A DNA stretch of 64,000 nucleotides from Alicyclobacillus sp. SO9 (GTDB taxonomy: Bacteria; Bacillota; Bacilli; Alicyclobacillales; Alicyclobacillaceae), in assembly GCF_016406125.1 (NCBI RefSeq), contig NZ_CP066339.1:4836001-4900000 (forward strand), in the 5' to 3' direction. How positions within the stretch are numbered: position 1 is the first letter of the stretch; the number at the start of each line of letters is the position of its first letter. Position numbers and translations under genes: made by a program. The notes beneath the pieces are model-generated. The model worked only from the letters and a program-made list of their open reading frames with translations. It was not told the DNA's origin and searched no databases. This document shows, piece by piece, positions 8,764 to 26,688 of this stretch.

Positions 8764-9546
8764 TCATATCCCAATCACAAACGGGTCGTGCAAGTTGCGA
8801 AGAAGCTTCATAATGCTCATCGCGACAATCACACCCGTTTTTGGGTTTTCAGATGGAGCATTTCTGATTTCAAATGAGAACAAACCAGAGTCCCCTTGCA
8901 CCGACACAACATGTACGTTTTGATGAATATCCGGATCTACCCACACTTCCACCCTGGTTTCGTCCAGCCCCCCGCCAGCGAGACCGAGTGCCGCCGAGAC
9001 ATTCGCGTTCTGGGGGTATTTTTGCGCCGCTTGCCTGGCTGTCCCCGTAAAGACCCGTGTTGGTACAGACAGTTGTTCCAAATCCAGGCGACTTTCCACC
9101 TCCGTTCCATACCAGGATGTCGGAGGCTTTCGCGTCTGCAACTGAACTGTCTGTAGACTGCCTTCCTTTGCCGCGCAAATGCGGTCTAATCCGCCGAGAG
9201 CACAAGATGGGAAGTATATTTTGGCGTTGTGTCTTAAAGCCTGTTGGTGCATCTGTTGTTCGAACGCCTTGTCTGTAAAAGCCCCCACACTGCAAACCGC
9301 CACTGAGATACCCCTTTGAACGAGTTGCGGGACAAAAGTACGGACCGCTGCTTGGCCTGCTGCTTCAATAACGAGATTTGGCTTTAGACTGAGAAAATGG
9401 GAGAAATCCGTCGTCATGATGGGCACGTGACTGGATCTCGTGCGACTGAATATTGAAATGAGCTCTAGACCAGGTAATTTAGCCGATTGAATCCGCTGTG
9501 CAACGTCCTTCCCAATGGCCCCATAACCTATCAATCCCACCTTCAT
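8764..9546 (-). CDS. Aspartate dehydrogenase-like oxidoreductase (DUF108 family)
   Basis: The 260-residue protein opens with a Rossmann nucleotide site GLIGYGAIGKDVAQR. It then has the aspartate-dehydrogenase signatures FPSCALGGLDRICAA (usual form PSGALAGLD) and NAPSENPKTG near the end, with the conserved His of DPDIHQNVH. The family oxidises aspartate to iminoaspartate with NAD(P), feeding NAD synthesis or deamination; related members act on other amino acids. Here it is the last gene of an operon with a GntR/FCD regulator 17 bp upstream, and it lies at the edge of a catabolic cluster, so a role in substrate catabolism is at least as likely as NAD synthesis. Confidence 0.8.
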   Translation of the reverse strand: MKVGLIGYGAIGKDVAQRIQSAKLPGLELISIFSRTRSSHVPIMTTDFSHFLSLKPNLVIEAAGQAAVRTFVPQLVQRGISVAVCSVGAFTDKAFEQQMHQQALRHNAKIYFPSCALGGLDRICAAKEGSLQTVQLQTRKPPTSWYGTEVESRLDLEQLSVPTRVFTGTARQAAQKYPQNANVSAALGLAGGGLDETRVEVWVDPDIHQNVHVVSVQGDSGLFSFEIRNAPSENPKTGVIVAMSIMKLLRNLHDPFVIGI

Positions 9547-10232: not shown

Positions 10233-10344
10233 GGCAATGGCTCCTTCAGCGGCACAGTTCAAGCAGTTAGTGCAAAGAACCCAGGATGGGCCGGAATACA
10301 TTCTGGTAAACACCAACTCCCCAAGCGCATTCCAACCCATCCTT

Positions 10345-10427
10345 GTTACCCTAATAAGCTGTTACCTCAATAAGCTGTTCTTACTTCAATAAAGTGTTAC
10401 CTCAATCAAATGTTGCCTCAAGTAAAC
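10345..10427. repeat. Degenerate 16-bp tandem repeat, about 5 copies
   Basis: Units of GTTACCTCAATAAGCT-like sequence follow each other at 10345, 10361, 10377 (with a 3-bp insertion), 10396 and 10412. The array stops exactly at the stop codon of the binding-protein gene, which begins at 10428. It fills most of the space between this gene and the downstream regulator gene. Similar 16-bp arrays occur at 14749 and 61289. Confidence 0.85.
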
Positions 10428-11522
10428 CTACGGCTTCTGGAATTTCCCAATCTTTTTCAGTGCAGCTTTGGCAAAACTCATGTTTACAATTTTTGACGCC
10501 TTCAAGCCGGTCTGTACAAACCCATGTTTGACATACCAGTTAATTTGGTTTTGGATACTGCTTGTATAAACGGTGCCATTCGGGTCCAGTTCAGGCTGGT
10601 TTTCGGCCTCAAGGATAGACACAGATGTATTGGTATCCTTAGCCATAATTTTGGCAATCTTAGCCTGATTTTTGCTTCCATAGACAAAGGCGTTGTCAAA
10701 GGCGCGTACACCTTTCAAATATGCAATCATATACCGTGTGGCGAGGCTCTTGTTTTTGAGGAGATTTTTCCCGAACTCTAGAACGGAGACTTCTTCATGG
10801 GGTGCGTATACCTTTGGTCCAATCGGGAAGGGAACGAGGATGTTTTGCTGTTTTCCTTTCGTAATCAAAGGTTCCAACTGCATTGCTGCATCCATCGCAC
10901 CGTGCGACATTGCGGTGTTTAAATCCGAAAAACTGTCGATCACTTTGATATGAACGTCCTTTTCCGTCAGGCCGCCCTTTGCCAATGCTTCGTCAAGCAT
11001 GAGCTCATTGATGTTTCCTTTTGAGACGACACCGATGGTTAAGCCTTTTAGGTCCTTGAATGTTTTTACTTTATTCTGAAGTTTCTTTCTAATCGTGAGT
11101 GCAAAATACGGTTTACCCGGATAGTTCCGTCCCGCGTCGGCTACAATCTGAATGCCGAAATTCTTGTGTTCCAGGTTAATTAGGCCGGCGCTGACCAGAC
11201 CCTGCGCTACATCAATTTGACCGGAGGCTAACCCAGTTAATTCGTCCGATCCGCTTGAAAATTTGGTCGACTCTATCTTAATTCCTTCCTGCTTAAAGTA
11301 ACCCAAGGCTTCTCCGAGGAACAAACCGGCATAAGACGGTGATCCTTCTGCAGTTGCTACTTTCACGACTTGAAGTTTTCCGGATGACCCTTTGCTTCCA
11401 CCACCAGACTGTGCGCTGCCCGAACTGTTGGCAGATGCTGTGCCGCAACCCGCTATCAGTCCAGTCACAAGCAGCGGTGCTGCTGCCCACATCACGAAAT
11501 TTTTCGACCTTTTTCCTATCAT
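10428..11522 (-). CDS. ABC transporter substrate-binding lipoprotein, NitT/TauT (NMT1-like) type
   Basis: The 364-residue protein has a lipoprotein signal ending LIAGCG and a serine/glycine-rich linker. The binding domain follows, with LGYFKQEGIKIESTKF, LASGQIDVAQGLVSAG and LKGLTIGVVSKGNINELM, typical of SsuA/TauA/ThiY-like proteins. These capture small molecules such as taurine, sulfonates, nitrate, aromatic acids or pyrimidines for import. ATPase and permease genes of the same family follow upstream on the same strand. The ligand cannot be told from sequence; the surrounding enzymes suggest the pathway substrate. Confidence 0.88.
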   Translation of the reverse strand: MIGKRSKNFVMWAAAPLLVTGLIAGCGTASANSSGSAQSGGGSKGSSGKLQVVKVATAEGSPSYAGLFLGEALGYFKQEGIKIESTKFSSGSDELTGLASGQIDVAQGLVSAGLINLEHKNFGIQIVADAGRNYPGKPYFALTIRKKLQNKVKTFKDLKGLTIGVVSKGNINELMLDEALAKGGLTEKDVHIKVIDSFSDLNTAMSHGAMDAAMQLEPLITKGKQQNILVPFPIGPKVYAPHEEVSVLEFGKNLLKNKSLATRYMIAYLKGVRAFDNAFVYGSKNQAKIAKIMAKDTNTSVSILEAENQPELDPNGTVYTSSIQNQINWYVKHGFVQTGLKASKIVNMSFAKAALKKIGKFQKP

Positions 11523-11736: not shown

Positions 11737-12573
11737 TTAGTTCGACAGACCTTGCTCACGTTTTGATTTATCCACTTCTTCCTTCAACAGGCCCCAAATT
11801 TCCGTGAACAATTCCATAAATCGATGACTTGCTCTCACTTCTTCGATTTTACGGGGCCTTGGGAGATCAATACTGAACGACTCCTTGACAGTGCCCGGGT
11901 GAGCCGTCATTACGTAAACCTTGTCAGAGAGAAACAATGCCTCGTCAATGCTGTGCGTGATGAACACAACCGTTTTACGCGACTCCTCCCAGATTCGAAC
12001 CAGCTCCTGCTGCAACAGTAACCTGTTCTGCTCATCCAGTGCTGCAAACGGCTCGTCCATCAGGAGTATTTCCGGGTCATTGGCGAAGGCACGCGCGACA
12101 CTGACACGTTGGCGCATGCCGCCGGACAGTTGATGCGGCAAAGCGTCGCCAAAGGGGCGTAACCCTGTTTTCTCCAGGTACAAGTCGACAATCTCATTCG
12201 TCTTTGCCTTCGGAACCTTTCGCATTCTTAGGCCATAACCAATGTTCTTACGCACGGACATCCAGGGAAAAATGGAGTGTTCCTGAAATACCATGGAGTT
12301 TAGCGGTTGGCTCAAGTCATCGTGCTGCATGTCCATCGTTCCCGTTGTGGGTTTCTCTAATCCGGCCAAGATACGAAGAAGGGTCGTTTTACCGCAGCCG
12401 CTTGGCCCGACAATGCACGCAAACTCTCCTTGCTTAATATCGAGATTGACCGCATCCAATGCCGTTACAATCTTCTTCTTCACTTGAAATTGCTTTCCCA
12501 ATCCCCGAATAGAAATTTTATTGTTCCGATGTTCATCAATTATGGCTGCGTCACTATTCAGCACCTTACTCAC
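11737..12573 (-). CDS. ABC transporter ATP-binding protein, SsuB/TauB type
   Basis: The 278-residue subunit shows Walker A GPSGCGKTT, Q-loop VFQEHSIFPWM, signature LSGGMRQRVSVARAF, Walker B ILLMDEPFAALD and the switch His in VVFITHSIDEAL. EHSIFPWMSV is characteristic of nitrate/sulfonate/taurine importers. It should hydrolyse ATP at the cytoplasmic face to drive the adjacent permease. The start is a GTG with AGAGGAG upstream. A 214-bp gap separates it from the binding-protein gene and 61 bp from the permease. Confidence 0.93.
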   Translation of the reverse strand: MSKVLNSDAAIIDEHRNNKISIRGLGKQFQVKKKIVTALDAVNLDIKQGEFACIVGPSGCGKTTLLRILAGLEKPTTGTMDMQHDDLSQPLNSMVFQEHSIFPWMSVRKNIGYGLRMRKVPKAKTNEIVDLYLEKTGLRPFGDALPHQLSGGMRQRVSVARAFANDPEILLMDEPFAALDEQNRLLLQQELVRIWEESRKTVVFITHSIDEALFLSDKVYVMTAHPGTVKESFSIDLPRPRKIEEVRASHRFMELFTEIWGLLKEEVDKSKREQGLSN

Positions 12574-12634: not shown

Positions 12635-13477
12635 TTATTTTTGTTTCCACGGCACAACACGGGCTTCAATTTCATCCAAAATAATGCTGAAAATATAGCC
12701 AAGGAGCGACATCAAAATGAAGTAGACAAACATGTCTCGAATATCAAAGACATCATACGAAGTCCATATGCGGTAGCCAATGCCAGCCGTGGACCCTTCC
12801 ATTTCAGCCGCAACAATCAAGAGCAGCGCCATCCCGGAGCCAAGCTTGAGTCCTGTAAAGATCATCGGCAGAGAACCGGGTATAGCAACTGTTTTGTAGT
12901 AGTTCCAACGTGAGGCTCCAAAGTTCTTTGCAACGTCCATGTACGCTTTCTCCAAATTTAAGACACCTGCTGCAGAGTTAATGAGCACTGGAAATACAAC
13001 ACCCAAAAGAATAATCATGATTTTCTCCAGATTACCCAATCCAAAGATCAACATGATGAGTGGCAACAGAGCCAACTTGGGGATGGGATAAGTGGCAGAG
13101 ACAACGGGATCGAAAATGGCACGGACGATGGGAAACAAGCCCATTGACACACCTATAATCACGCCCGGTACAGCCCCCCCAATAAATCCCCAGAAAATGC
13201 GGTACAAACTCACAACCAAGTCATGCTGCAACTGCCCCGTCTGAATGTCACTAATACCTTTTGCAATAATGGACGTTGGTGTTGGGAAGAACCTCGTATC
13301 AATCAGGTGAAATTGAGACAGGAACTGCCAGATAACCAGCAAGATGATAGGAGAGACAACAGCGAGAACTCGGCGCCTTTGGTTTTCCGTCATGCCGATT
13401 TTCACCTTTTCAACGTCCGTTCCTACCACTTTAATTGCGTGTCCAGACTCCGTCATTGGAGAACTCAAATCTCTCAC
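12635..13477 (-). CDS. ABC transporter permease, SsuC/TauC type
   Basis: The 280-residue membrane subunit has about six transmembrane helices. The ATPase-coupling EAA loop reads AAGVLNLEKAYMDVAKNFGASRWNYYKTVAIPGSLP, here spanning about residues 164-199, the classic form for the sulfonate/taurine/nitrate family. It forms the channel for the binding protein and ATPase encoded just downstream. The first candidate start is GTG 13477, directly abutting GAGAAAGG, and an ATG seven codons later is the alternative. An FCD-type operator lies 21 bp upstream, so this operon belongs to the regulon. Confidence 0.92.
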   Translation of the reverse strand: MRDLSSPMTESGHAIKVVGTDVEKVKIGMTENQRRRVLAVVSPIILLVIWQFLSQFHLIDTRFFPTPTSIIAKGISDIQTGQLQHDLVVSLYRIFWGFIGGAVPGVIIGVSMGLFPIVRAIFDPVVSATYPIPKLALLPLIMLIFGLGNLEKIMIILLGVVFPVLINSAAGVLNLEKAYMDVAKNFGASRWNYYKTVAIPGSLPMIFTGLKLGSGMALLLIVAAEMEGSTAGIGYRIWTSYDVFDIRDMFVYFILMSLLGYIFSIILDEIEARVVPWKQK

Positions 13478-13497
13478 CCTTTCTCAGTTTGAATAAT

Positions 13498-13510
13498 GTA
13501 TGTTGTATAC
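13498..13510 (-). promoter_or_regulatory. FCD-type operator A (permease operon)
   Basis: On the minus strand GTATAC-A-ACATAC, matching the shared motif GTATAC-W-NNATAC. It is 21 bp upstream of the permease start. Confidence 0.7.
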
Positions 13511-13542
13511 CAAATCAACCAAAAATTTTTTGGTTGTAATAA

Positions 13543-14088
13543 CTAAACCCCAAACCGAGGCAATACAATGCCTCCGTAGACAAAGGCTGCAACAATGACG
13601 AAAGCTGGGTGCCACTTCTTAAAATGAATGACCCACAACGCTACGGCTGCAATAATAACTGATTGCAAAACTCCAATGCCGTGCACTGCGTCCCGGCCAA
13701 TTTCCCAGGTCAAAAGCACCATCAAAATAGCGATGACAGGTTGCACAAGGGCCGTCATCCCTTTCACCACTGACGAAGTGCGGTATTTATTGAGAATTTT
13801 CAACAACACGATGAGCCCCAAGCAGGATGGAAGAACAGTTGCTGCAATTGCGATGAAAAAACCTGCCCATCCACTGGCTCCATACCCGACAAAGGCAGCG
13901 ATTTTTGTCGCAATGGGACCCGGTAAAGCATTTCCCAACGCTAATACATTTGCAAACTGCGTATTGTTCATCCAGTGATAGTGATGAACAATTTGGACTT
14001 GCATCAAAGGAATGGACGAAGGACCTCCGCCGTAGCCAAGAATATTGGCCACAAAGAAGCCCCAAAGCACGTGCAGCAAGTTCATCAT
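13543..14088 (-). CDS. Short chromate (CHR) family transporter, first of a pair
   Basis: About 181 residues, half the length of a classical ChrA, with five to six hydrophobic helices. It has the CHR signatures NILGYGGGPSSIPLMQ and ALGNALPGPIATKIAAFVGY. Short CHR proteins work as two-subunit pairs; a second copy lies 0.7 kb upstream on the same strand. Chromate export is the named function, but family members probably carry other anions. I start at the double ATG at 14088/14085, which follows GGAGGAAAT, not the longer open frame to 14217. Confidence 0.85.
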   Translation of the reverse strand: MMNLLHVLWGFFVANILGYGGGPSSIPLMQVQIVHHYHWMNNTQFANVLALGNALPGPIATKIAAFVGYGASGWAGFFIAIAATVLPSCLGLIVLLKILNKYRTSSVVKGMTALVQPVIAILMVLLTWEIGRDAVHGIGVLQSVIIAAVALWVIHFKKWHPAFVIVAAFVYGGIVLPRFGV

Positions 14089-14196
14089 ATTTCCTCCTTC
14101 CATGTACATCCTGTACTTCACTGGCGTTAGGAAAGCCAAAAGTTTGACAATATGGATTGGGCAACTACTATCCATTCCCATGTTCCACTGAATATT

Positions 14197-14209
14197 GTAT
14201 ACAATATAC
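14197..14209 (-). promoter_or_regulatory. FCD-type operator B (chromate-family gene 1)
   Basis: GTATACAATATAC, at the centre of a longer palindrome ATATTGTATACAATAT. It is 109 bp upstream of the start, and an extra half-palindrome AGTATACT lies at 14223-14230. Confidence 0.72.
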
Positions 14210-14345
14210 CATTTCAATAAGTAGTATACTGTCCGCCAACACTCTGTGTCAACGCAAAATTCAGTATCTTGTCACAATTATATCTGTTTGCTTATTGACT
14301 GCTGCAGGCAGCCTCCGCAAACATTGGTGCTTTAAAATACTCATA

Positions 14346-14681
14346 TTAAGATTTGGACTGTTCTATTCTTTTCCATGCTGGTTTAAGGGGGACAGCATCT
14401 TGCTGAATTTCAATATCACTTGTAATTTCAAGCTGGCAGAGCAAACGGTACCCTTCTGCGAGTTTGTCCTCACCAACCATCTTAATCTCCTTCCAGTTTG
14501 GTTCTGGAAGGAACTCAAGCCCTGCTAAAATTCGTGACGCGCATCGAGTACACCTACCCATTCCACAAGAATAGCGGAGCCCTTTGAACTTCCTTAGTCC
14601 GGCCAGTACAACCAGGTTACTTCCTGGTCTTACCTTCTGTTCGTACAGGCCGTCCACCCCGTGCAGGATGACGTTCACCAT
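14346..14681 (-). CDS. [2Fe-2S] plant-type ferredoxin (1 of 2)
   Basis: The 111-residue protein has the cluster ligands C39-x4-C44-x2-C47 (in YSCGMGRCTRC) and C82 (LLCQ), the plant/adrenodoxin-type arrangement. It is a soluble one-electron carrier, usually serving an oxygenase or reductase. The second ATG (14681) is the better start because GGAGG is 7 nt upstream. It lies between the two chromate-family genes. With the second ferredoxin at 17195 it could feed the diiron protein encoded nearby; no ferredoxin reductase gene is in the window. Confidence 0.88.
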   Translation of the reverse strand: MVNVILHGVDGLYEQKVRPGSNLVVLAGLRKFKGLRYSCGMGRCTRCASRILAGLEFLPEPNWKEIKMVGEDKLAEGYRLLCQLEITSDIEIQQDAVPLKPAWKRIEQSKS

Positions 14682-14748
14682 ATGCATGCCTCCGTTGTAT
14701 CCGACTTCGCTGACGACTGTTTTACGACTTCACTTGCTCCATTTACCA

Positions 14749-14828
14749 TTTCGTTGCTGTTTCATTTCGTCATTACTTCATTTCGTTACTGCTTCATTTC
14801 GCTGTTACCTGATTTCGTTACTGCTTCA
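14749..14828. repeat. 16-bp tandem repeat, 5 copies
   Basis: Five consecutive 16-bp units of the form TTTCGTTACTGCTTCA run from 14749 to 14828 with a few substitutions. The stop codon of the chromate-family gene (14818) lies inside the last unit, so the array begins at the very 3' end of that gene and fills the space towards the ferredoxin gene. Confidence 0.92.
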
Positions 14829-15498
14829 TTGTGGGATTCTGCGACTCCGTTGTGCCCTTTGCCACAGACTGACTCCTGTTTTTTGTTAGATATTTTGTGA
14901 ACCTAAAATGCACTGTGCCGTAGGCCAAAAACGCCAGGACAACAATCGCTGGATTCAAGTTCAGAACGGCCAAGAGCAAAAGAGCTGTAAGGGCAAATCC
15001 CGTTCCAGCCGCTTTCCCCAAGCCTTTCCAGGATTTCTTGGTAAAATCGTAGGCCATCAGGCCTAACATCACCACAATGACTGGGTTAACTGCTGCAATC
15101 ATGCCGTGAACGATTGGTGATTGGCGAAACCATGTCAACGCGTTTAGCAGCAAAACCATGGCCAGGGTAGTAGGAAGAATATGAATAACCACAGCGCTAA
15201 TTGCCCCTGCTGCACCCTTGACGCGGTATCCTAGGTATGCGGCCATTTTTGTGGCGATAGGACCTGGCAGAGTATTGGCGACGGCTAATATCTCACCAAA
15301 CTCAGTGTCGTCAATCCACTGGTACCGGTCGACTGCCTCATAACGAAACAACGGTATAATCGCGGGTCCTCCTCCGTACCCAAGCATTCCGGTTCGCAAC
15401 ATGGCCAACGCGATTTCTCGGTAGGCTTTTGGATTGATACAAATCCCCCCTCTACACGCTGTGCTGTAACGTACTACCTTCGCATCATCCCCTCCCAT
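14818..15498 (-). CDS. Short chromate (CHR) family transporter, second of a pair
   Basis: Up to 226 residues with about six membrane helices and the CHR motifs RTGMLGYGGGPAIIPLFRYE and AVANTLPGPIATKMAAYLGY. It pairs with the other short CHR protein at 13543. The only standard in-frame start is ATG 15498, which has no ribosome site and would leave a 5' leader of under 10 nt from the predicted promoter. AGAGGGGGG lies six bases before an in-frame ATC at 15438, which would give the same N-terminal length as the partner, so initiation at a rare codon is possible. The end lies in a 16-bp repeat. Confidence 0.82.
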   Translation of the reverse strand: MGGDDAKVVRYSTACRGGICINPKAYREIALAMLRTGMLGYGGGPAIIPLFRYEAVDRYQWIDDTEFGEILAVANTLPGPIATKMAAYLGYRVKGAAGAISAVVIHILPTTLAMVLLLNALTWFRQSPIVHGMIAAVNPVIVVMLGLMAYDFTKKSWKGLGKAAGTGFALTALLLLAVLNLNPAIVVLAFLAYGTVHFRFTKYLTKNRSQSVAKGTTESQNPTMKQ

Positions 15499-15506
15499 TT
15501 AATTTG

Positions 15507-15541
15507 GTATACAATATACAATACAGACACAATTTTTTCAA
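15507..15541 (-). promoter_or_regulatory. Promoter with FCD-type operator C (chromate-family gene 2)
   Basis: On the minus strand TTGAAA (15536-15541) and TATATT (15513-15518) are 17 bp apart. The operator GTATACAATATAC (15507-15519) lies over the -10 box, so a bound regulator should exclude RNA polymerase. Confidence 0.75.
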
Positions 15542-15651
15542 TTATTAATTTTCTTAAGTGTGCCAAGAGTTTTTCGCAGTGAGATAACTCAACCACTGGG
15601 ATGGCGCGTTCTATGATGACTGAAACAACTATATTGACACGCGGATAGATG

Positions 15652-15664
15652 GTATACTCCATAC
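15652..15664 (+). promoter_or_regulatory. FCD-type operator D (GntR gene at 15710)
   Basis: GTATAC-T-CCATAC, 46 bp before the GTG start of the plus-strand GntR gene and just past a TTGACA box at 15634. Position suggests autoregulation. Confidence 0.7.
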
Positions 15665-15709
15665 AAAACACGACATATGGAAATCTAAGGGCAAGGGAGT
15701 TGGTGAGGA

Positions 15710-16372
15710 GTGGCACTTTCAACAGATTCCATCAGTGAACAAATTCGTCAGATTTTACGCGATAGAATTTTGGACGGAACGTTTCATCCAGGACAACGAC
15801 TCTTAGAGCACGCTCTGGCTGAGGAATTTATGGTCAGTAGAACGCCTATCAGAGAGGCCGTTTTGAGATTGGAAGTGGAAGGACTCGTAACAACAAATCC
15901 AAGGCGGGGCATTTCAGTCAGTATGGTTAGTAAGGAACAGGTTTTGGAACTCTTTGAAATTCGGCTGTTACTCGAACCGATGGCTGTGGAACTCGCTAGT
16001 CAAAGACGCACCCAAGCTGAATTGGAGCGTTTAAGAGAAGCCCTGCAGGCAATGGACGAGACACTGTCGTCTTTGGACGACACAAAACTGGACGAACACC
16101 ATGCGCAGTTTCATAAGACGATCTACCAAGCAGCCCATAGCCCAAGACTGCTTGAAATCTTATCAGGATTGCTAGGCGACATTCGACGCTTTGCACGACA
16201 AAGCTACACGTTTTTCGGACGCGATAAAGAAGCCATGCGGGAACATTGGGCTCTCCTGGACGCAATCAGCCAAGGCGACGGCCAGAGAGCCTTTCAGTTG
16301 TCAAGAATCCATATAGAACAGTCCAAGAAAGTGTATATGAAAGTGTATCAGACGCAGACAACGCAACAGTGA
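15710..16372 (+). CDS. GntR-family regulator, FadR/FCD subfamily (2 of 3)
   Basis: 220 residues. The winged HTH contains ILDGTFHPGQRLLEHALAEE and SRTPIREAVLRLEVEGLV. The helical FCD domain retains its His/Asp ligand positions (LDEHHAQFHKTIYQAA, REHWALLDAI, RIHIEQSKK). It closely resembles the regulator at 9564, down to the FARQSYTFFGRDKEAM stretch. It is the only plus-strand gene in the cluster, transcribed away from the chromate-family operon with operator D in front, and is the best candidate for the cluster-wide regulator. The GTG start has AAGGGAG 10 nt upstream. Confidence 0.92.
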   Translation: MALSTDSISEQIRQILRDRILDGTFHPGQRLLEHALAEEFMVSRTPIREAVLRLEVEGLVTTNPRRGISVSMVSKEQVLELFEIRLLLEPMAVELASQRRTQAELERLREALQAMDETLSSLDDTKLDEHHAQFHKTIYQAAHSPRLLEILSGLLGDIRRFARQSYTFFGRDKEAMREHWALLDAISQGDGQRAFQLSRIHIEQSKKVYMKVYQTQTTQQ

Positions 16373-16441: not shown

Positions 16442-17101
16442 TTAAGACTGCTTCTTCAACTGATGACGGTAGGCATTCACTGATTGTTGGACATGCAAAT
16501 GGATGTACTCTTCCGCTGCGTCCCCGTCTCCAGCCTGAACAGCCTTGATAATCTCTCTGTGCTCATGTGCAGCCTCTTCAGCGCGCCCAGGTTGCTCTCG
16601 TCCCAACCTTGCTGTAGCCCGAATCATGTCCAAGAGGCTCCTGAGCATATCGGTCAGTTTCTTGTTCTTGGCAACTTCACAAATCGCCGCAATCATTTGG
16701 GACGCATCTGTGACATCTATCTGATTCAACATGTCCTGTTGCGAAGGTGTGATTCGTTCTGCTGCCTGTCTCACCGCAAGTACTTCCAACGTTTCAAGGA
16801 TGCGAAACATATCAAGAATGTCCTTGTCGGTCAATTCTACAACGATTCCGCCTCGACGAGGAATGATTTCAATAAATCCTTCAGAGTCCAGCTTTCGCAG
16901 TGCTTCCCGCACGGGTGTACGGCTGATACGCAGCCGTTCGGCCAGTTCCCGTTCAATTAGGCGTTCGCCAGCCTTCAACTCCCCCAACAAAATCTGCTCC
17001 CGAAGAATTTGATAAACTCTTACCTCAAGCGGGCGAAAATCCTCATCGAACAAACCTCCTGCATCCTTACCCACGTTTTTGTCACATCCCATTCCATTCA
17101 T
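16442..17101 (-). CDS. GntR-family regulator, FCD subfamily with altered ligand pocket (3 of 3)
   Basis: 219 residues with an intact winged HTH (SRTPVREALRKLDSEGFI). The FCD domain is shorter than in the two neighbours by about 15 residues. The segment that carries the first Asp and the FH metal ligand in them is here DASQMIAAICEVAKN, with Ile at the His position. Later His residues (HEHREII, HLHV) remain. It may therefore bind a different effector or respond without metal. Operator H lies 17 bp upstream of the start, so it is probably part of the same regulon. Confidence 0.88.
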   Translation of the reverse strand: MNGMGCDKNVGKDAGGLFDEDFRPLEVRVYQILREQILLGELKAGERLIERELAERLRISRTPVREALRKLDSEGFIEIIPRRGGIVVELTDKDILDMFRILETLEVLAVRQAAERITPSQQDMLNQIDVTDASQMIAAICEVAKNKKLTDMLRSLLDMIRATARLGREQPGRAEEAAHEHREIIKAVQAGDGDAAEEYIHLHVQQSVNAYRHQLKKQS

Positions 17102-17117
17102 AATCAGCGAATCTGTC

Positions 17118-17130
17118 GTATGGTGTATAC
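17118..17130 (-). promoter_or_regulatory. FCD-type operator H (GntR gene at 16442)
   Basis: On the minus strand GTATAC-A-CCATAC, 17 bp upstream of the start codon of the third FCD regulator. Confidence 0.7.
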
Positions 17131-17194
17131 CTTTGTAGATTCGCGCTGCTCATATACTAGCAATGTGACAACCGAACTGCAAGAGAAAACCTTG

Positions 17195-17575
17195 TTACGT
17201 ACCGCCAACTTGACTCTTATAACCCGTGTTTGCTCCTCTTTTCTCCCAAAATTCGCGCAGTTTCGGCAGGGGCGGGAGCTTTGACTGTTCGGGATCCCAT
17301 GTCAACGTACAATCGCCATACGCATAGGTCTGGCACCCTAACCGGTACCCTTCTTTTAGCATGTCCCCCAACCTGTCGATTTCCGCTTTTCCTACGGGAG
17401 AGATGTTGTCCATGCCCTCTTCCACGTAGACTCTGCAAGTTCCGCATCGGCCGCCCGCACAGCGGTAGGGCAACCCTCCCTCGTAGCGAATCGAAGTACG
17501 AAGAATGTGTGCTTCTCCCTCGGGCCCAATTTCAATTTTGCGGCCTGATGTCTTGAAGTAGATGCGTCCAGCCAT
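17195..17575 (-). CDS. [2Fe-2S] plant-type ferredoxin (2 of 2)
   Basis: 126 residues with ligands C39-x4-C44-x2-C47 (YRCAGGRCGTC) and C81 (RLGCQ). The GAGGTCGTCGAACC region in front of the ATG offers a ribosome site. It is the last enzyme-associated gene of the apparent operon diiron protein - aldehyde dehydrogenase - GlcG - ferredoxin, with an 18-bp gap to the GlcG gene. Co-expression with a diiron oxygenase-like protein suggests that it delivers electrons to it; this is inference. Confidence 0.9.
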   Translation of the reverse strand: MAGRIYFKTSGRKIEIGPEGEAHILRTSIRYEGGLPYRCAGGRCGTCRVYVEEGMDNISPVGKAEIDRLGDMLKEGYRLGCQTYAYGDCTLTWDPEQSKLPPLPKLREFWEKRGANTGYKSQVGGT

Positions 17576-17593: not shown

Positions 17594-18073
17594 CTACATT
17601 TTTATGTCCGCTTCTGCAGTAACCTCGTAACCCTCTGATGCCAAGGATTCTGCCAAAGCCTCGAGTGCCGCGAGACCAACAGCGGTGTCCTGCTTACCAT
17701 TCCCGCCACTGATGCCAAGTCCGCCAACCACCTCATTGTCAATGACAATTGGAAAACCTCCCACAAATACAGCGAACCGTCCCGGAAACATGAGTTGAAT
17801 CCCATATGCTTCGTTGTTAGGGAGAACAGGGCCGTTCGGCGGTTTATTGAACAGGTGTGTAGCACGCCTGTGCCCTGCTGCTGTAAAAGCTTTTGCAATG
17901 GCGATTTCCGGTCCCGTAATTCTCGCACCGTCCATGCGCTCCAGTGCGATGAGATGCCCTCCTGCATCCACCACAGCGATGGTTTCTGCCACTTCAATTT
18001 CACTAGACTTTTCCTCAGCCGCGGCAATCAGTGTGCGAGCCTCAGCGGTTTCCAGTTGAATCGTCTTCTTCAT
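17594..18073 (-). CDS. GlcG/HbpS (DUF336) family protein
   Basis: About 159 residues starting MKKTIQLETAEARTLIAAAE. The DUF336 motifs are AVVDAGGHLIALERMDGA, AIAKAFTAAGHRRAT, MFPGRFAVFVGGFPI and GGLGISGGNGKQD. The family includes HbpS (haem binding), GlcG of glycolate operons and small catabolic-operon proteins whose chemistry is mostly unknown. The ATG at 18073 follows GGGAGGGCG; the longer open frame to 18217 overlaps the aldehyde dehydrogenase end and is unlikely. It sits 31 bp after the dehydrogenase gene. Confidence 0.88.
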   Translation of the reverse strand: MKKTIQLETAEARTLIAAAEEKSSEIEVAETIAVVDAGGHLIALERMDGARITGPEIAIAKAFTAAGHRRATHLFNKPPNGPVLPNNEAYGIQLMFPGRFAVFVGGFPIVIDNEVVGGLGISGGNGKQDTAVGLAALEALAESLASEGYEVTAEADIKM

Positions 18074-18104
18074 CACGCGCCCTCCCATTGGCTTATTGAG
18101 ACCC

Positions 18105-19574
18105 TTATTCACCGCCGTAGTACACGGTTTTGATCTGTGTAAAGAACTCCAGCCCGGTTCGACCTGATTCGCGAAATGTAGTTGTACTTGAGCGTTTGAG
18201 TCCTCCGAACGGAGCATTTATCAAGTTTCCCGTGGTTGTGCGATTAACTTTCACAGTTCCTGCTTCAATCTCTCTAACGAACAGATTCGCCTTGTTGATG
18301 TCCCTTGTCACCAAAGATGCCGACAAACCGTATTCCACGTCATTGGCCGCTTCAAGGGCTTCTTCAAGACTGTCAACCGGAATAACAGAAATGACCGGAC
18401 CGAAAATTTCTTCCCTGGAAATGGTCATAGCCTGCGTTGCATCCGCAAAAATAGCCGGGGTTACGTAATATCCCTTCGCATACTCTCCACCGGTCAAATG
18501 CTCGCCCCCATAGACCAGTCGTGCGCCTTCTTTCTTACCAAGTTCGATGTATGATAACACGGTGTCCAATTGGGACTGATTTGCCAAAGGACCCATCTCA
18601 ACACCTTTGTCCAGTCCATTTCCTATTTTCATGGATTTTGCGGCCTCAATTAATAATGGAAGAAACTCGTCATAGACCGACCGCATGACAATAACTCTGC
18701 TTGTACCCGTGCAGGCCTGCCCTGTAAGTCCATACCCACCTTTAATCGTCAGGTCAACCGCCTTTTCCAGATTTCCATCTTCCATCAGAATCAGCGGATT
18801 TTTACCTCCGAGTTCCATCTGAGTTCTGGTTGTCAGTGAAGCCTTACTGTGAATCGCTTCCCCCGCTCGGGTCGATCCCGTAAATGTAATGGCCCGAATT
18901 CTCACATCTGTCGTCAGTGCGGCCGACACACGCGAAGCCTGCCCCGTTACGAAATTCAATACACCCTTTGGCAACCCGGCATCATACAAGCATTCGACCA
19001 ACCGCAGTGCTGTGAGCGGTGTGTCTGATGCAGGCTTAAAGACAACCGTATTGCCAGCAGCCAAAGCGGGCGCTATTTTTCGAGAGGGAATAGACATAGG
19101 AAAGTTCCACGGAGTAATGACAGCCACCACGCCCAATGGTTCACGATGGCTGAACACAAAGGCATCTCCATCGTCGCTTGGGAACGTTTCTCCCGTAAAC
19201 GACAGAATTTCCTGGGCGTAAAAGCGGAGTGTGGAAGCAGACCTGGCGACTTCCTTACTTGCGGCGCCGTACAGCTTCCCTTCCTCTCGGCACAATTCCT
19301 CTGCATACCTCTCTCTGCGTTCGTCCAGCAGTTGGGCAGCTTTGATGAGGATGGATGATCTCTTGGTTGGGGACGTTTTTCTCCAATCAGCAAAGGCCAA
19401 TGCCGCGGCATCCACCGCACGCACTGCATCTTCATGATTCATATTGGGGAACTGCCCCAATATGTCAGATGTGTCCGCCGGATTTATGCTTTGAAACCAT
19501 TCCGACGATTGCGATTCTACCCATTCTCCATCAATCAGGCTCTTAAACTTTTGCACATCATGCACCGTCTCCAT
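18105..19574 (-). CDS. NAD(P)-dependent aldehyde dehydrogenase, ketoglutarate-semialdehyde-like
   Basis: About 489 residues, a full-length class-3-fold aldehyde dehydrogenase that oxidises an aldehyde to its acid. Visible features are the N-terminal SLIDGEWVES, cofactor segment ITPWNFPMSIPSRKIAPALA, FTGSTRAGEAIH, the general-base Glu in MELGGKNPLIL, the catalytic Cys in GQACTGTSR and EEIFGPVISVI. GQACTGTSR is similar to 2-oxoglutarate-semialdehyde dehydrogenases, so a dicarboxylic semialdehyde is a reasonable substrate guess. I take ATG 19574 (GAGG 7 nt upstream); GTG 19580 is possible. It follows the diiron-protein gene. Confidence 0.92.
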   Translation of the reverse strand: METVHDVQKFKSLIDGEWVESQSSEWFQSINPADTSDILGQFPNMNHEDAVRAVDAAALAFADWRKTSPTKRSSILIKAAQLLDERRERYAEELCREEGKLYGAASKEVARSASTLRFYAQEILSFTGETFPSDDGDAFVFSHREPLGVVAVITPWNFPMSIPSRKIAPALAAGNTVVFKPASDTPLTALRLVECLYDAGLPKGVLNFVTGQASRVSAALTTDVRIRAITFTGSTRAGEAIHSKASLTTRTQMELGGKNPLILMEDGNLEKAVDLTIKGGYGLTGQACTGTSRVIVMRSVYDEFLPLLIEAAKSMKIGNGLDKGVEMGPLANQSQLDTVLSYIELGKKEGARLVYGGEHLTGGEYAKGYYVTPAIFADATQAMTISREEIFGPVISVIPVDSLEEALEAANDVEYGLSASLVTRDINKANLFVREIEAGTVKVNRTTTGNLINAPFGGLKRSSTTTFRESGRTGLEFFTQIKTVYYGGE

Positions 19575-19607
19575 TTCCACGCCTCACTTTCATCCTCCAG
19601 TAAGTTC

Positions 19608-19638
19608 TTGTGGAGCGGTACAAAGCACCGCTCCACAA
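19608..19638 (-). terminator. 12-bp perfect stem-loop between diiron-protein and aldehyde dehydrogenase genes
   Basis: TTGTGGAGCGGT pairs perfectly with ACCGCTCCACAA around a 7-nt loop. There is no T tract after it on the minus strand. It is more likely an mRNA processing or stability element than a full terminator, and would set the ratio of the two products. Confidence 0.6.
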
Positions 19639-19660: not shown

Positions 19661-20383
19661 TCAGGCGGTGACTGTTGACTCTACATCTGGTTGAACATAA
19701 GCCCGGTATAGTCCATCCATATACGCCCAGCGCATCGCAGCTCCATCGCGAATCACTTTTAGGCAGCGTTGTTGAAGCTCCGGTGTGTCAGCGTGATCGA
19801 GCACAATCTGAAATCCTCTCTCCCCGTGGATTTCATCCGAAACGATATGCAGCGAGAAAAACTCTGCCTCTTCTTCCGAAAATCCGTATTTGTCTAATAG
19901 AGGAGGAAGCTGCTTCTTGTAAATCGCCGGCACCTGCGACTCGAGTCCGACAATCAGAGCAGCACTTGCAACAACAAAGTGTTCCCGCATTGCCAGCGCA
20001 TAGCACCAACTTTGCAGACCTCGAGTCGTCGGCAGCATGTTGTTATCGTCCTTCACACGGTCCGCAGTAGTGCCGCAGGCCTCAGCAAAGCGAATGAGCA
20101 AATCCGTATGACGCACGTCACTAATCTCTTCTTCGTACATGTTTTGCAGGAGAAAGTCTTTTGCCTCTTCGAATTTGTCAGATGTATTCCCGTAGATATA
20201 GCCCAAGTAGTCGGCAAAAGGACCAACATAGTGGTAGTGATTTTCTGCCCACCTTGCAAAGTGCTTTCTCTGCAGTTTCCCCTCTGCCCAAGCCACACTA
20301 AAGGGAGCTGCCTGGGAGTGGCGGCCCTTGATAGCCTCTTCCATTTGCGTCCGAAACTCTTCCTTAGAAAGCATCTCCGTCAT
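19661..20383 (-). CDS. Heme-oxygenase-like diiron oxidase/oxygenase (PqqC/CADD/TenA fold)
   Basis: The 240-residue all-helical protein belongs to the PqqC/TenA structural family. It carries the six metal ligands of the diiron subgroup (HDO proteins such as CADD and UndA): E85 and H92 in YEEEISDVRH, E148 in VGLESQ, and H179, D183 and H186 in LHIVSDEIHGE. The spacing H-x3-D-x2-H and E-x6-H matches CADD exactly. Such enzymes use O2 and two irons for C-C or C-N bond cleavage, N-oxygenation or decarboxylation. The lack of a TPP riboswitch and the neighbours argue against a thiamine-salvage TenA. It leads an operon with operator F. Confidence 0.88.
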   Translation of the reverse strand: MTEMLSKEEFRTQMEEAIKGRHSQAAPFSVAWAEGKLQRKHFARWAENHYHYVGPFADYLGYIYGNTSDKFEEAKDFLLQNMYEEEISDVRHTDLLIRFAEACGTTADRVKDDNNMLPTTRGLQSWCYALAMREHFVVASAALIVGLESQVPAIYKKQLPPLLDKYGFSEEEAEFFSLHIVSDEIHGERGFQIVLDHADTPELQQRCLKVIRDGAAMRWAYMDGLYRAYVQPDVESTVTA

Positions 20384-20445: not shown

Positions 20446-20500
20446 GGTATACTGTATACCAAATTGGCCCTATTATATCAATTACACACGAGCAAATCAA
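20446..20500 (-). promoter_or_regulatory. Promoter with FCD-type operator F (diiron-protein operon)
   Basis: On the minus strand TTGATT (20495-20500) and TATAAT (20472-20477) are 17 bp apart. The perfect 15-bp palindrome GGTATACTGTATACC (20446-20460) lies about where transcription starts. This is the most symmetrical copy of the shared operator. Confidence 0.78.
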
Positions 20501-20508
20501 CAGATAAT

Positions 20509-21279
20509 TCAGTTTCTTGAAATGAAATTGGGATTTAAGTCGAAGATCTTCCTTGCCGCCTCAGCAGTATTTTTTACAGCTTCCTCCACAATCTCGCGCC
20601 CCGCTTCATAGGACCCTGCCGGCGCATTCCCGATAGCACCATTCTTCGTCATTTCGTCATAGTAATAAAACCCCTGAATCGCTTGCCCTGGACGGAGCCA
20701 GCGCCAAGGCCCCTCCTGAATCTCACCTTTGGCCAAATGGTCCTCTCGAACAATTTCCGGAGCTACATACAAGGATTCAGATACTTCACGTTCACAACTG
20801 TGACCGAACAAGTCTGAGTGAACGTGTTTCTTAATACTCTCCTTAGCAGACGCTGTGGTCTTGGTATAAGTAACGTTTACTTGAAGCTCCTGAGAAATCT
20901 GCGCTGACGCAACACTTAGCAGCGACTGGTTTCCCCCGTGACTGTTTACAATAAGGAAGTTTTCCAAACCGTGTTGCTTGAGGGACCAAATGATATCTTC
21001 CAGCACCTGCAGCAGCGTCTCCGCACGAAGGGTGATTGTCCCAGGAAAGTGAATGTGGTGCATCGACATCCCGAATGGAATGGTGGGAGCAACCAAAACA
21101 CTTGGGTGAAGTTCATCGGCAATTTTCCTGGCGATTCTTTCAGCGAGTACAGCGTCACAAGATTCATGGAGATGAGGTCCGTGCTGTTCGTGTGCGCCGA
21201 TTGGCAGCAGGGCCAATTTGACAGTCTCCATAGCCTCTTTCACTTGCGGCCACGTCATTTCACTCAAAACATACGCCAC
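20509..21279 (-). CDS. Creatininase-family amidohydrolase
   Basis: The 256-residue protein has the family's metal motif: E31, H33 and H36 in AHEQHGPHLHESCD with D42, then VNSHGGNQS and a later E in HSCEREVSES. The family opens cyclic amides (creatinine) or cleaves formamide bonds (FAPy deformylase, MftE) with a binuclear metal site. In this cluster it may hydrolyse an amide or lactam of the imported compound, which is inference. It has its own promoter region with operator G 26 bp upstream and heads the cluster on the right side. Confidence 0.9.
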   Translation of the reverse strand: MAYVLSEMTWPQVKEAMETVKLALLPIGAHEQHGPHLHESCDAVLAERIARKIADELHPSVLVAPTIPFGMSMHHIHFPGTITLRAETLLQVLEDIIWSLKQHGLENFLIVNSHGGNQSLLSVASAQISQELQVNVTYTKTTASAKESIKKHVHSDLFGHSCEREVSESLYVAPEIVREDHLAKGEIQEGPWRWLRPGQAIQGFYYYDEMTKNGAIGNAPAGSYEAGREIVEEAVKNTAEAARKIFDLNPNFISRN

Positions 21280-21304
21280 TATCTCAACTCCTCCCCCTCA
21301 GATT

Positions 21305-21317
21305 GTATACACTATAC
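21305..21317 (-). promoter_or_regulatory. FCD-type operator G (creatininase-family gene)
   Basis: GTATAC-A-CTATAC, 26 bp upstream of the start codon. Confidence 0.72.
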
Positions 21318-21452
21318 AATATAACGCTATTCTCATAGATATACTACATCTGATACGAATCCAGCGAACGAATTAACATTTTTATCTTTTTTAACCTAAA
21401 TAACGAAATTGTTGTGGTATGATTCAAGTGAAAAAATACGAGGAATGGTGTG

Positions 21453-24885: not shown

Positions 24886-26688
24886 CTAGCGGGAGGACTG
24901 AATTGTATCAACATGCAAGCGGTCGGTCTCAACCTCCCACATAGCACGATAGACTCCACGCTTTCCAATCAATTCCTCATGCGTACCTCGTTCAACAATT
25001 CGCCCCGCATCGAATACCAGAATCTCGTCAAAGGCTTCCAGCCCGGTGAGGCGATGGGTTATGAGCAAAAGAGATTTGTCTTTTGCTACGCCCTTCAGAA
25101 CGCTGAGAAACTGTCTCTCTGTCAGCGCATCGAGTCCATTTGTGGGCTCGTCAAGCAGCAGAACAGGTGCTTCTTTGAGCAGTGCCCTGGCTAATGCCAA
25201 GCGCTGCTTCTCACCTCCAGAAAACCGTGTTCCAAATTCCCCTACCACAGTTTGATAGCCTTGTGGCAGTGTCCGCAGTAAGCCGTCAATCTGCGCCTGC
25301 TCGGCCGCCGCTTCCATTTGTGCATCCGTCGCATCAATTTTGCCCAACCGAAGATTCCCAGCAACCGTATCGTGAAAGAGATGCGCCGACTGTTCAACCA
25401 ATGCAAAGTTGGCTCTTACTTCTTCAGCGGTCAGACCCTCCACATCCACCCCGCCGAGTTGTATGCTGCCGGCAGAAGGCTGCCACAACCTCATAATGAG
25501 ATTGATCAATGTACTCTTGCCTGCACCGCTTGCACCAACAACCGCAATGTGCTTTCCTTCTGGCAAGGTAAACGTAATGTCTGTCAAGACATTCTCAGCC
25601 TGATTGGGATAACGAAAATGAACGTGATTGAGGGAGACATCAGCAGAGGCAGGGTGGTGCAAAGACTCCCCGTCCAGCAGCGGGCTGCGTTCATCTGCCA
25701 GAGCGAAAATTCTTCTTCCGGCTTCCACACATTCTCCTATTTGCTGAAAGGCGGTCGGGATTGGCATTAACGCTTCAAATGCAGACAGAGCCGCCAGCAT
25801 CATCGCAGCCAACACCACCCCTTTGACCTGGCCCAAGCTGACAGCAGCCGCACCAATCCACAAAACACCCCACATGGCAAGGTGATTCAAGCCAAGCAAC
25901 AAAGCACTGCTGAGGCCTTCAATGTTTGTCAGGCGAACCTGTTGGCGGTTAAACGCAGACTGCTCCTCCTCGTAGTGGTGCAGCCATTTCTTTACTTGGC
26001 CAAAGCTGATGATGTCTGCCATTCCAGCCATAGTGTCCGTCAGGCGGGTGTGAAGGCGACTTTTGCTCCTTACCAACTCGGCTCCGGCCTTCGCACTGAA
26101 TTGGTGAGACAGCCACGGCACACCAATTCCAGCCAACAAGTACAACAGAACAAATGTAACAGCGGACCAGAAGTTAAAACTCCAAAGGATAGCTGCGGTA
26201 AGTATCATAATCAGCAGTGCTACTGCAAGAGGTGCTAAACCGCGCAAATATAAGTTCTGAAGAGTGTCGATGTCCCCGACAACCGCAGCCATTACGTCTC
26301 CGCTCTGTCGACTTTGCCACAGCCAAGGGACCAATGGTTCAATCTTGGCATATAACCACACGCGCATCTGTTTTAAAATGCGAAAGGTCAAGTCGTGAGA
26401 CAGATACCGCTCACCATAGCGAAAAGCGGCCCGTGACAAACCGAAAAACCGCACCCCGACAATTGGCACCCATATCAGCAAAATTGTAATGGGGTGCAGG
26501 GCCGCTTTCGAAATCAGATAGCCCGACGTGGCCATCAGACCAACACTGGCACCGATTGTGGCGAATCCAAGCAGTACAGAAAGAAGTGTCTGCCCAGGAT
26601 AAGGTCGCTGGAATTTCAGCAATCGCCAAATGATGGTGGAGGTTTTCAAATTCGGCTGTAAACTGTTTGAGATGTGTTCCTGCTTCAC
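24886..26688 (-). CDS. cydC: Thiol reductant ABC exporter subunit CydC
   Basis: A 600-residue half-transporter: a six-helix membrane domain (1-320) with SGYLISKAALHPITILLIWV, then a nucleotide-binding domain with Walker A GASGAGKST, signature FSGGEKQRLALARALL and Walker B VLLLDEPTNGLD. CydDC exports cysteine or glutathione to the outer face and is needed to assemble cytochrome bd. The start overlaps the stop of the cydD gene by four bases, so the two are co-translated. No cydAB genes are in the window. Confidence 0.9.
   Translation of the reverse strand: MKQEHISNSLQPNLKTSTIIWRLLKFQRPYPGQTLLSVLLGFATIGASVGLMATSGYLISKAALHPITILLIWVPIVGVRFFGLSRAAFRYGERYLSHDLTFRILKQMRVWLYAKIEPLVPWLWQSRQSGDVMAAVVGDIDTLQNLYLRGLAPLAVALLIMILTAAILWSFNFWSAVTFVLLYLLAGIGVPWLSHQFSAKAGAELVRSKSRLHTRLTDTMAGMADIISFGQVKKWLHHYEEEQSAFNRQQVRLTNIEGLSSALLLGLNHLAMWGVLWIGAAAVSLGQVKGVVLAAMMLAALSAFEALMPIPTAFQQIGECVEAGRRIFALADERSPLLDGESLHHPASADVSLNHVHFRYPNQAENVLTDITFTLPEGKHIAVVGASGAGKSTLINLIMRLWQPSAGSIQLGGVDVEGLTAEEVRANFALVEQSAHLFHDTVAGNLRLGKIDATDAQMEAAAEQAQIDGLLRTLPQGYQTVVGEFGTRFSGGEKQRLALARALLKEAPVLLLDEPTNGLDALTERQFLSVLKGVAKDKSLLLITHRLTGLEAFDEILVFDAGRIVERGTHEELIGKRGVYRAMWEVETDRLHVDTIQSSR

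Follow-up and report, generated by a model that had tools for sequence, protein, structure and literature searches.

A heme-oxygenase-like protein with a complete diiron ligand set

The window analysed here, a stretch of 64,000 nucleotides from Alicyclobacillus sp. SO9, encodes a heme-oxygenase-like protein (HDO) in a gene cluster that also contains ferredoxins. Does this protein have the residues of an oxygen-activating diiron site and, if so, what kind of pathway would it serve? The minus strand of its gene (Table 1) is an unbroken frame of 240 amino acids, and the plus-strand translation contains stops. E85, H92, E148, H179, D183 and H186 are all found at these positions of the protein. In HMMER alignments, counted by eye, they stand opposite E81, H88, E142, H174, D178 and H181 of CADD. 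The E-x6-H and H-x3-D-x2-H spacings equal those of CADD and the interval between E148 and H179 is shorter by one residue. All six are identical in the 86 rows of the ortholog alignment (the window protein plus 85 locus proteins, among which L082 repeats L063 and L084 repeats L001), and they are kept in 11 of 11 more distant orthologs (62.8-78.1% identity). The alignments and this conservation confirm what the earlier note had claimed, namely that six residues match the CADD ligand pattern with nearly equal spacing. By sequence alignment, HDO thus has a 3-His/3-carboxylate set at the aligned positions. E47, H49 and H51 are likewise invariant in the 86 rows, H51 being replaced by Ala in two of the 11 further orthologs. 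The same sequence alignment has an invariant E134 (86/86 rows); an extra Glu ligand from an auxiliary helix is the mark of the 3H/4C subtype of HDOs (SznF-like).

The predicted model of HDO (pLDDT 86.5, pTM 0.83, from a 36-row alignment) has the heme-oxygenase-like alpha-helical fold of the HDO superfamily. Its best overlay by VIA-align is CADD (Z 25.5, rmsd 2.1 A, 213 residues), followed by PqqC (Z 24.7), UndA (23.2) and HrmI (22.4). Overlay on CADD and UndA, which the earlier note had proposed as a check, agrees with its reading at the level of the whole fold. Foldseek ranked PqqC first and CADD second, and overlays of PqqC and TenA on the model reached Z 18-25. Metal-bearing and metal-free members have the same fold, and the ligand set is therefore needed to tell them apart.

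This shared fold would also suit an enzyme like PqqC or TenA that works without a metal and uses its His/carboxylate cluster for something else. The family models can be read both ways. PF14518 matches HDO with 112.5 bits (cutoff 28.9, E 2.6e-32), and Pfam TENA_THI-4 (PF03070) matches it more weakly though still above its cutoff (44.2 bits, cutoff 22, E 2.4e-11), being a broad TENA/THI-4/PQQC model that is not specific to TenA. The NCBIfam PqqC model (TIGR02111) gives 66.3 bits, far under its cutoff of 240, and there is no TenA model among the NCBIfam matches at E 0.001. In PqqC (5vrc), as aligned by eye, H179, D183 and H186 are replaced by R, A and D, so that at least three of the ligands are missing, which bears out the claimed difference from cofactor-free PqqC. 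The proposed separation from TenA stands as far as the ligand set and the NCBIfam matches go, but not at the level of Pfam, where TENA_THI-4 scores above its cutoff. As the six invariant residues and a redox partner in 73 of 73 loci (see below) fit an O2-activating metal site better, we regard a metal-free enzyme as improbable.

Among solved structures, phmmer found the closest relatives of HDO in 9pj4 (4-aminobenzoate synthase, E 2.4e-24) and CADD (1rcw, E 1.5e-15). Together with the common ligand set and the best VIA-align overlay, this could suggest a self-sacrificing p-aminobenzoate synthase of the CADD/PabS type, which turns its own Tyr and Lys into p-aminobenzoate. The sacrificed residues are Tyr27 and Lys152 in CADD and Tyr25 and Lys159 in NePabS, as described in part of the source cited (PMC11965152). 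They face Ser29 and Gln158 of the window HDO (alignment by eye). In the ortholog alignment, position 29 is Ser in 28 rows and Thr in 58, and position 158 is Gln in all 86; the 11 further orthologs have Ser, Thr or Ala at the former and Gln at the latter. The NCBIfam CADD model (TIGR04305) scores 97 bits against a cutoff of 200, and the neighbours that family models could name are not folate genes; unlike CADD and NePabS, HDO lies in a catabolic-type cluster with ferredoxins. Self-sacrificing synthesis is thus the least probable of the functions considered here, and HDO shares the ligands and the fold of CADD but not its function.

UndA, BesC, HrmI and PolF have the same fold as the window HDO (Z 18-23), with 10-18% identity in the overlays. 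BesC belongs to the 3-His/3-carboxylate ligand class. According to the parts of a review drawn on here (PMC13108848), UndA, HrmI and PolF are of the 3-His/3-carboxylate type as well, like the window HDO, and these natural-product enzymes are described there without a multi-gene ferredoxin set. BioE was considered as a possible relative and set aside; the parts of its paper drawn on here (PMC12915131) make no mention of heme oxygenase, PqqC, TenA or Pfam. The sequence, the predicted fold and these comparisons support an HDO-type protein that has the complete 3-His/3-carboxylate set, differs from cofactor-free PqqC and is encoded together with ferredoxins in a cluster of catabolic type.

Distribution of the clade

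Genome contigs were scanned once, with 455 pattern matches; an HDO relative (E 0.001) is encoded at 443 of them, though not every one need be a member of the clade. The best 80 of these 443 have 70-85% identity to the window HDO, and taking them biases the sample to close relatives. Their hosts include Bacillaceae and related Bacillota, Alicyclobacillaceae, actinomycetes and Desertimonas, as well as metagenome-assembled genomes (MAGs) of Acidimicrobiales, Thermoanaerobacterales and Pirellula. HDO orthologs are also carried by six plasmid records of Cupriavidus and Caballeronia (64.6-70.9% identity); the other plasmid matches listed have about 26-27% identity and are PqqC wherever the record is annotated there.

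Some PF14518 protein is present in 54 of 200 genomes of a class sample. Compared with the window HDO, 11 of 29 PF14518 loci have 62.8-78.1% identity and two have 22.8 and 23.8%; the rest consist of one match of 23 residues (43%, E 0.2) and 15 loci without a match at E 1. This gap in identity indicates that the clade of the window HDO stands well apart. Its distribution is patchy, since a gene of the clade was found in four of 61 near-relative genomes, the window's own genome included, and in one of 398 genomes of a phylum sample (E 1e-60), which is again its own. One locus (L041), titled Chryseobacterium sp. ISL-80, is arranged as in Cytobacillus, and this assembly is probably mislabelled or contaminated.

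A conserved catabolic-type gene cluster

Read along the minus strand, the HDO gene follows the creatininase gene and precedes the genes for the aldehyde dehydrogenase (ALDH), the HbpS-like protein, a ferredoxin and a GntR-family regulator. Past a divergent GntR gene, the minus strand continues with ChrA, ferredoxin, ChrA, ABC permease, ATPase, the SsuA-like protein, GntR and the aspartate-dehydrogenase-type enzyme (AspDH) (Table 1). HDO had been described as lying beside a ferredoxin in a catabolic operon. The catabolic-type cluster with ferredoxins was indeed found, but the ALDH and HbpS-like genes lie between HDO and the nearer ferredoxin. The HDO and HbpS-like genes are less than 3 kb apart, and each is the only match to its own Pfam family in the genome of 5.3 Mb. 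The true start of the HbpS-like gene is probably near 18073, as its orthologs have about 159 aa, and that of the second ChrA gene (13543-14217) is probably further in, because a palindrome (14196-14210) lies inside the long ORF.

Table 1. Features of the HDO cluster, with positions counted from the first letter of the window
Feature	Coordinates	Strand	Basis or remark
HDO, heme-oxygenase-like protein, full diiron ligand set, 240 aa	19661..20383	-	only PF14518 match in genome
Creatininase-family amidohydrolase	20509..21279	-	NCBIfam; PF02633, one of two genome matches
Aldehyde dehydrogenase	18105..19580	-	NCBIfam; alpha-ketoglutaric/2,5-dioxovalerate semialdehyde dehydrogenase best, under cutoffs
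HbpS/GlcG-like protein (PF03928)	17594..18217	-	only PF03928 match in genome
[2Fe-2S] plant-type ferredoxin 1	17195..17575	-	NCBIfam; same ferredoxin family near HDO in 63/73 loci
GntR-family regulator	16442..17101	-	protein cluster 2; palindrome 17117-17131 just upstream
GntR-family regulator, divergent	15710..16372	+	protein cluster 2; palindrome 15651-15665 upstream
ChrA-family (chromate-type) transporter half	14818..15498	-	protein cluster 1; PF02417 by homolog
[2Fe-2S] plant-type ferredoxin 2	14346..14687	-	NCBIfam
ChrA-family transporter half	13543..14217	-	protein clustering
ABC transporter permease	12635..13477	-	PF00528; palindrome 13497-13511 upstream
ABC transporter ATPase	11737..12573	-	
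ABC substrate-binding protein, SsuA-like	10428..11522	-	91 bits, cutoff 163.5
L-aspartate-dehydrogenase-type enzyme	8764..9546	-	NF009828, 240 bits, above cutoff
Operator-like palindrome upstream of HDO	20446..20460	.	perfect
Operator-like palindrome upstream of creatininase gene	21304..21318	.	3 mismatches
Operator-like palindrome upstream of GntR 16442-17101	17117..17131	.	3 mismatches
Operator-like palindrome upstream of GntR 15710-16372	15651..15665	.	3 mismatches
Operator-like palindrome upstream of ChrA 14818-15498	15506..15520	.	2 mismatches
Operator-like palindrome at ChrA 13543-14217	14196..14210	.	2 mismatches
Operator-like palindrome upstream of ABC permease gene	13497..13511	.	3 mismatches

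Several repeats lie between these genes. An inverted repeat (19608-19638) lies between the HDO stop and the ALDH start; its 12-bp arms match perfectly around a loop of 7 bases, and there is no T run. It is the only such match in the window and possibly an element of mRNA processing or stability. About five tandem 16-nt units (consensus CATTTCGTTACTGCTT) lie between ferredoxin 2 and the first ChrA gene and reach into the end of its ORF (14747-14830), and about five imperfect 16-nt tandem units lie between a GntR gene and the gene of the ABC substrate-binding protein (10344-10426).

Neighbours were counted by tblastn, because gene calls at high GC are unreliable, within 9 kb of HDO and at 40 bits or more, in the 73 of the 80 loci that have at least 14 kb (L005, L022, L052, L053, L060, L062 and L077 are shorter and were dropped); the reference proteins include some that come from the counted loci. 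Under these conditions, a [2Fe-2S] ferredoxin, Rieske ferredoxin or reductase is found near HDO in all 73 loci and an ALDH in 72. For each of the six ALDHs that were tested, the ketoglutaric/2,5-dioxovalerate semialdehyde models score highest, though below their cutoffs, so that "semialdehyde-type" is the most that they can be called. A creatininase, GGT-type or alpha/beta hydrolase is present in 70 loci, the latter two taking the place of the creatininase in other taxa. A GntR or PucR regulator is present in 69 loci; the HbpS-like protein, the carrier-like protein TransA, and an imine or amino-acid enzyme of the RidA, AspDH, ornithine-cyclodeaminase (OCD) or ProC type in 68 each; and a 111-aa protein in 57. 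With a slightly stricter cut, the same 73 loci gave creatininase in 60, GGT in 10 (two of these matches, in L016 and L075, having only 29-30% identity), ferredoxin in 63, FAD reductase in 10, ChrA in 57, TransB in 58, AspDH in 46, RidA in 34, ProC in 31 and PucR in 10. The hydrolase is absent near HDO from three of the 73 loci, and the imine enzyme, HbpS and TransA from five each, in some cases with short flanks; the Cupriavidus locus L086 had no hydrolase match either. These gaps indicate that the pathway logic is not uniform.

The control consisted of PF14518 genes from the same class that are not orthologs of HDO, each taken with its surroundings (20 regions, 10-20 kb). They were picked from listed places and not at random; eight belong to the same family as the window, and contig ends shorten two. 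Every component was found in 0 of 20 except ALDH, found in two; one more region had an MFS match and one a 25% match to HDO. In the 11 regions of the more distant orthologs, the HbpS-like protein, ALDH, hydrolase, imine enzyme and regulator were each present in 11 of 11. TransA was missing from one of these regions (L152) and the redox partner from another (L148, with only 13.5 kb), which leaves both at 10 of 11.

An HbpS-like neighbour and a ferredoxin-type partner (68 and 73 of the 73 loci), together with the name of the fold, might bring to mind heme catabolism, with HDO as a heme oxygenase acting alongside the ferredoxin and the HbpS-like protein. This is very unlikely, given the full diiron ligand set and the relationship to HDOs. 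The genes marked by the same palindrome (see below) are moreover of amidohydrolase type, an aspartate dehydrogenase and carriers of small anions, and an ALDH lies in the operon. No heme-uptake gene stood out among the conserved clusters.

Redox partners and electron supply

Genetic linkage to a [2Fe-2S] or FAD partner, the mark of a dedicated redox partner, thus holds for 73 of 73 loci and 10 of 11 further regions, against 0 of 20 in the control. Bacillota loci mostly have plant-type ferredoxins (protein cluster 0; 63 loci, 116 members). A reductase is found in ten actinomycete loci, and the one tested contains Pyr_redox_2 and Reductase_C domains. HDO is followed directly by a Rieske-type match in five of the ten, while the next match in the remaining five is the reductase. 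A ferredoxin together with a Rieske-type protein is present in Desertimonas (L016) and in the Thermoanaerobacterales MAG L055, the latter as judged from sequence. Besides two ferredoxins, the Caballeronia locus encodes a fused Fer2/FAD/NAD reductase. In the window, ferredoxins were found and there was no match to the reductase references. This replacement of one partner type by another between lineages is the best evidence that HDO would need electrons delivered by a protein. The ferredoxin of the window is part of a conserved set of electron-transfer proteins whose make-up differs between lineages.

Known HDOs offer a partial precedent. In the mangotoxin pair MboA (acetylenase) and MboB, an HDO is genetically linked to a flavin/Fe2S2 redox partner that it requires for full conversion, and this pair, from 2026, is perhaps the first dedicated one of HDO and redox partner, according to the parts of the paper drawn on here (PMC13185094). 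MboA/MboB is biosynthetic, acts on a peptide and uses a single reductase, whereas the window clade has neighbours of degradative type, and its redox partners are either separate ferredoxins or a reductase, which a Rieske ferredoxin may accompany. Part of another source names FlcD, which takes no external reductant, as the exception among characterised HDOs, the others needing auxiliary reductants (PMC11363339).

A palindrome shared by the promoters

A palindrome, GGTATACTGTATACC, lies about 60 bp upstream of the HDO start codon. With up to three mismatches it has eight matches in the window, where 0.94 are expected and 0 of 100 shuffles reach eight, and seven of the eight fall within the HDO cluster (Table 1). 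The exact core is rare elsewhere, being found in 10 of 95 loci, three of which have copies of the window's own site.

The seven window sites served to build a weight matrix. We scanned 58 low-GC loci outside this training set (GC at most 52%, at least 14 kb) with it and with 30 permuted palindromic matrices, counting as upstream those matches within 350 bp of cluster genes. Threshold 17 gave 127 matches, 123 of them upstream, against a mean of 1.5 and at most 6 matches for the permuted matrices. At threshold 14 there were 222 matches (permuted mean 13.9, largest 58), of which 211 were upstream (mean 5.0, largest 56). At threshold 9 the total of 516 does not exceed the largest permuted value of 532 (mean 217), while the upstream count is 438 against at most 146 (mean 59.5). 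Counting an upstream region between divergent genes for both genes, a site at threshold 14 was present for the ferredoxin in 54 of 58 loci, creatininase in 50 of 58, AspDH in 37 of 45, the 111-aa protein in 38 of 57, TransA in 22 of 57, GntR in 11 of 58 and HDO in 8 of 58. In these 58 loci HDO usually stands behind other genes of the cluster.

The cluster is thus apparently co-regulated. We take this type of palindrome to fit GntR/FCD-family regulators, and the gene set is probably under the control of GntR proteins that would bind at these sites.

A proposed pathway

We propose a catabolic pathway for an organic anion that contains nitrogen, in which HDO is the terminal diiron oxygenase and is fed by a ferredoxin; to this reading we give a probability of somewhat under 60%. 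A small organic anion would be imported by TransA or, alternatively, by the SsuA-like ABC system. The diiron site of HDO would receive electrons from NAD(P)H, by way of a reductase and then a [2Fe-2S] ferredoxin, and would activate O2 and oxidise or oxidatively cleave the anion. The neighbouring ALDH could then convert an aldehyde product to the acid. An amide or lactam would be hydrolysed by the creatininase, GGT-type or alpha/beta hydrolase, depending on lineage, and imines may be handled by the RidA, aspartate-dehydrogenase, ornithine-cyclodeaminase or ProC type of enzyme. The palindrome marks the pathway genes and the importer together. Where the hydrolase step stands relative to that of HDO is a guess.

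AspDH and OCD are unrelated enzymes, but amino acids and imines (iminosuccinate, for example) can be substrates of both. The AspDH is found in Bacillota, and an OCD-family enzyme in two Burkholderiaceae loci, in Desertimonas (L016) and in an Acidimicrobiales MAG (L075). This alternation suggests that an amino acid or an imine is an intermediate. The Rut uracil pathway follows the same logic as the window set, with an oxygenase, an amidohydrolase, RidA, a semialdehyde enzyme and a transporter, and serves here as an analogy only. RutA is a flavin monooxygenase; here the candidate is a diiron HDO with a ferredoxin.

The HDO clade, with its constant redox partner set in a conserved catabolic-type cluster, is apparently new within a known superfamily. 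Its fixed redox and catabolic-type neighbours and common motif suggest a degradative use of HDO chemistry. More tentatively, and with considerable doubt, the loci may represent a new aerobic catabolic pathway of several phyla. In such a pathway, a multicomponent HDO with interchangeable ferredoxin, Rieske and reductase modules would take the role of RutA and, with the help of oxygen, open or cleave a nitrogen-containing organic anion, and amide hydrolysis, imine removal and semialdehyde oxidation would follow. Characterised HDOs are described in biosynthetic roles in the parts of the review cited (PMC13108848) and in the papers considered here. If the proposal is true, an HDO would here serve degradation and not biosynthesis for the first time, judging by searches of the open-licence literature, which gave no description of the gene set. 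The fixed neighbours and the promoter motif make the substrate findable.

Carriers and accessory proteins

Two carrier-like families of about 460-490 aa are tied to the HDO gene set, TransA (reference in L050, 8317-9780) and TransB (L044, 6007-7398). Neither has a significant match in Pfam or NCBIfam, and TransA has no significant sequence match in PDB. The predicted model of TransA weakly resembles anion carriers of the IT superfamily (TRAP, INDY, ArsB and MleN), with fold matches (E at most 0.001) of TM 0.3-0.6 and rmsd 7-14 A. TransA is not in the window cluster; its single genome match (39% identity) lies elsewhere, where the ORF list gave no interpretable neighbours. The region without TransA among the further orthologs (L152) encodes a homolog of the window's binding protein (49% identity) about 6 kb from its HDO gene, next to permease-like and ATPase-like ORFs as judged from sequence. 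As both the window and L152 lack TransA and have this binding protein, the ABC importer seems to be a repeated stand-in for TransA.

The same importer could be taken as a sign of sulfonate desulfonation, in which HDO would hydroxylate the carbon beside a sulfonate to release sulfite and an aldehyde, with ChrA or TauE proteins carrying the sulfur anion. The presence of the SsuA-like system in both the window and L152, of ChrA near HDO in 57 of 73 loci, of a TauE/SafE gene beside the L055 operon and of the adjoining ALDH would fit such a reaction. SsuA-like proteins bind many anions, however, and the window protein scores below the cutoff of the family. The link of ChrA and TauE to sulfite is only a loose one, and there is no ChrA match in the actinomycete loci shown. 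Desulfonation would also leave the hydrolase and imine enzymes unexplained, and we consider it about as improbable as a metal-free enzyme; oxidation of a nitrogen-containing organic anion is the reading that we prefer.

The TauE/SafE-family carrier gene of the Thermoanaerobacterales MAG (L055, 4951-5727) adjoins its TransA/ALDH/HDO cluster and is a weak hint at sulfur-containing substrates.

The 111-aa protein is encoded beside ferredoxins (L010, 6472-6813, and 56 other loci) and occurs in Cupriavidus and Caballeronia as well (L086, 10400-10720; L087, 13078-13428). It has no significant profile match in Pfam, NCBIfam or PDB. By tblastn it has no match in the window, in the actinomycete loci or in any of the 11 further ortholog regions, which rules it out as a universal effector. 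HDOs studied to date need no protein effector according to the parts of the review cited, which stresses natural-product roles (PMC13108848). Where present, the 111-aa protein could be a regulatory or coupling partner. The ABC transporter subunit encoded at 26685-28604 of the window carries a repetitive insert of the NEINEINEVNE type before its ATPase part.
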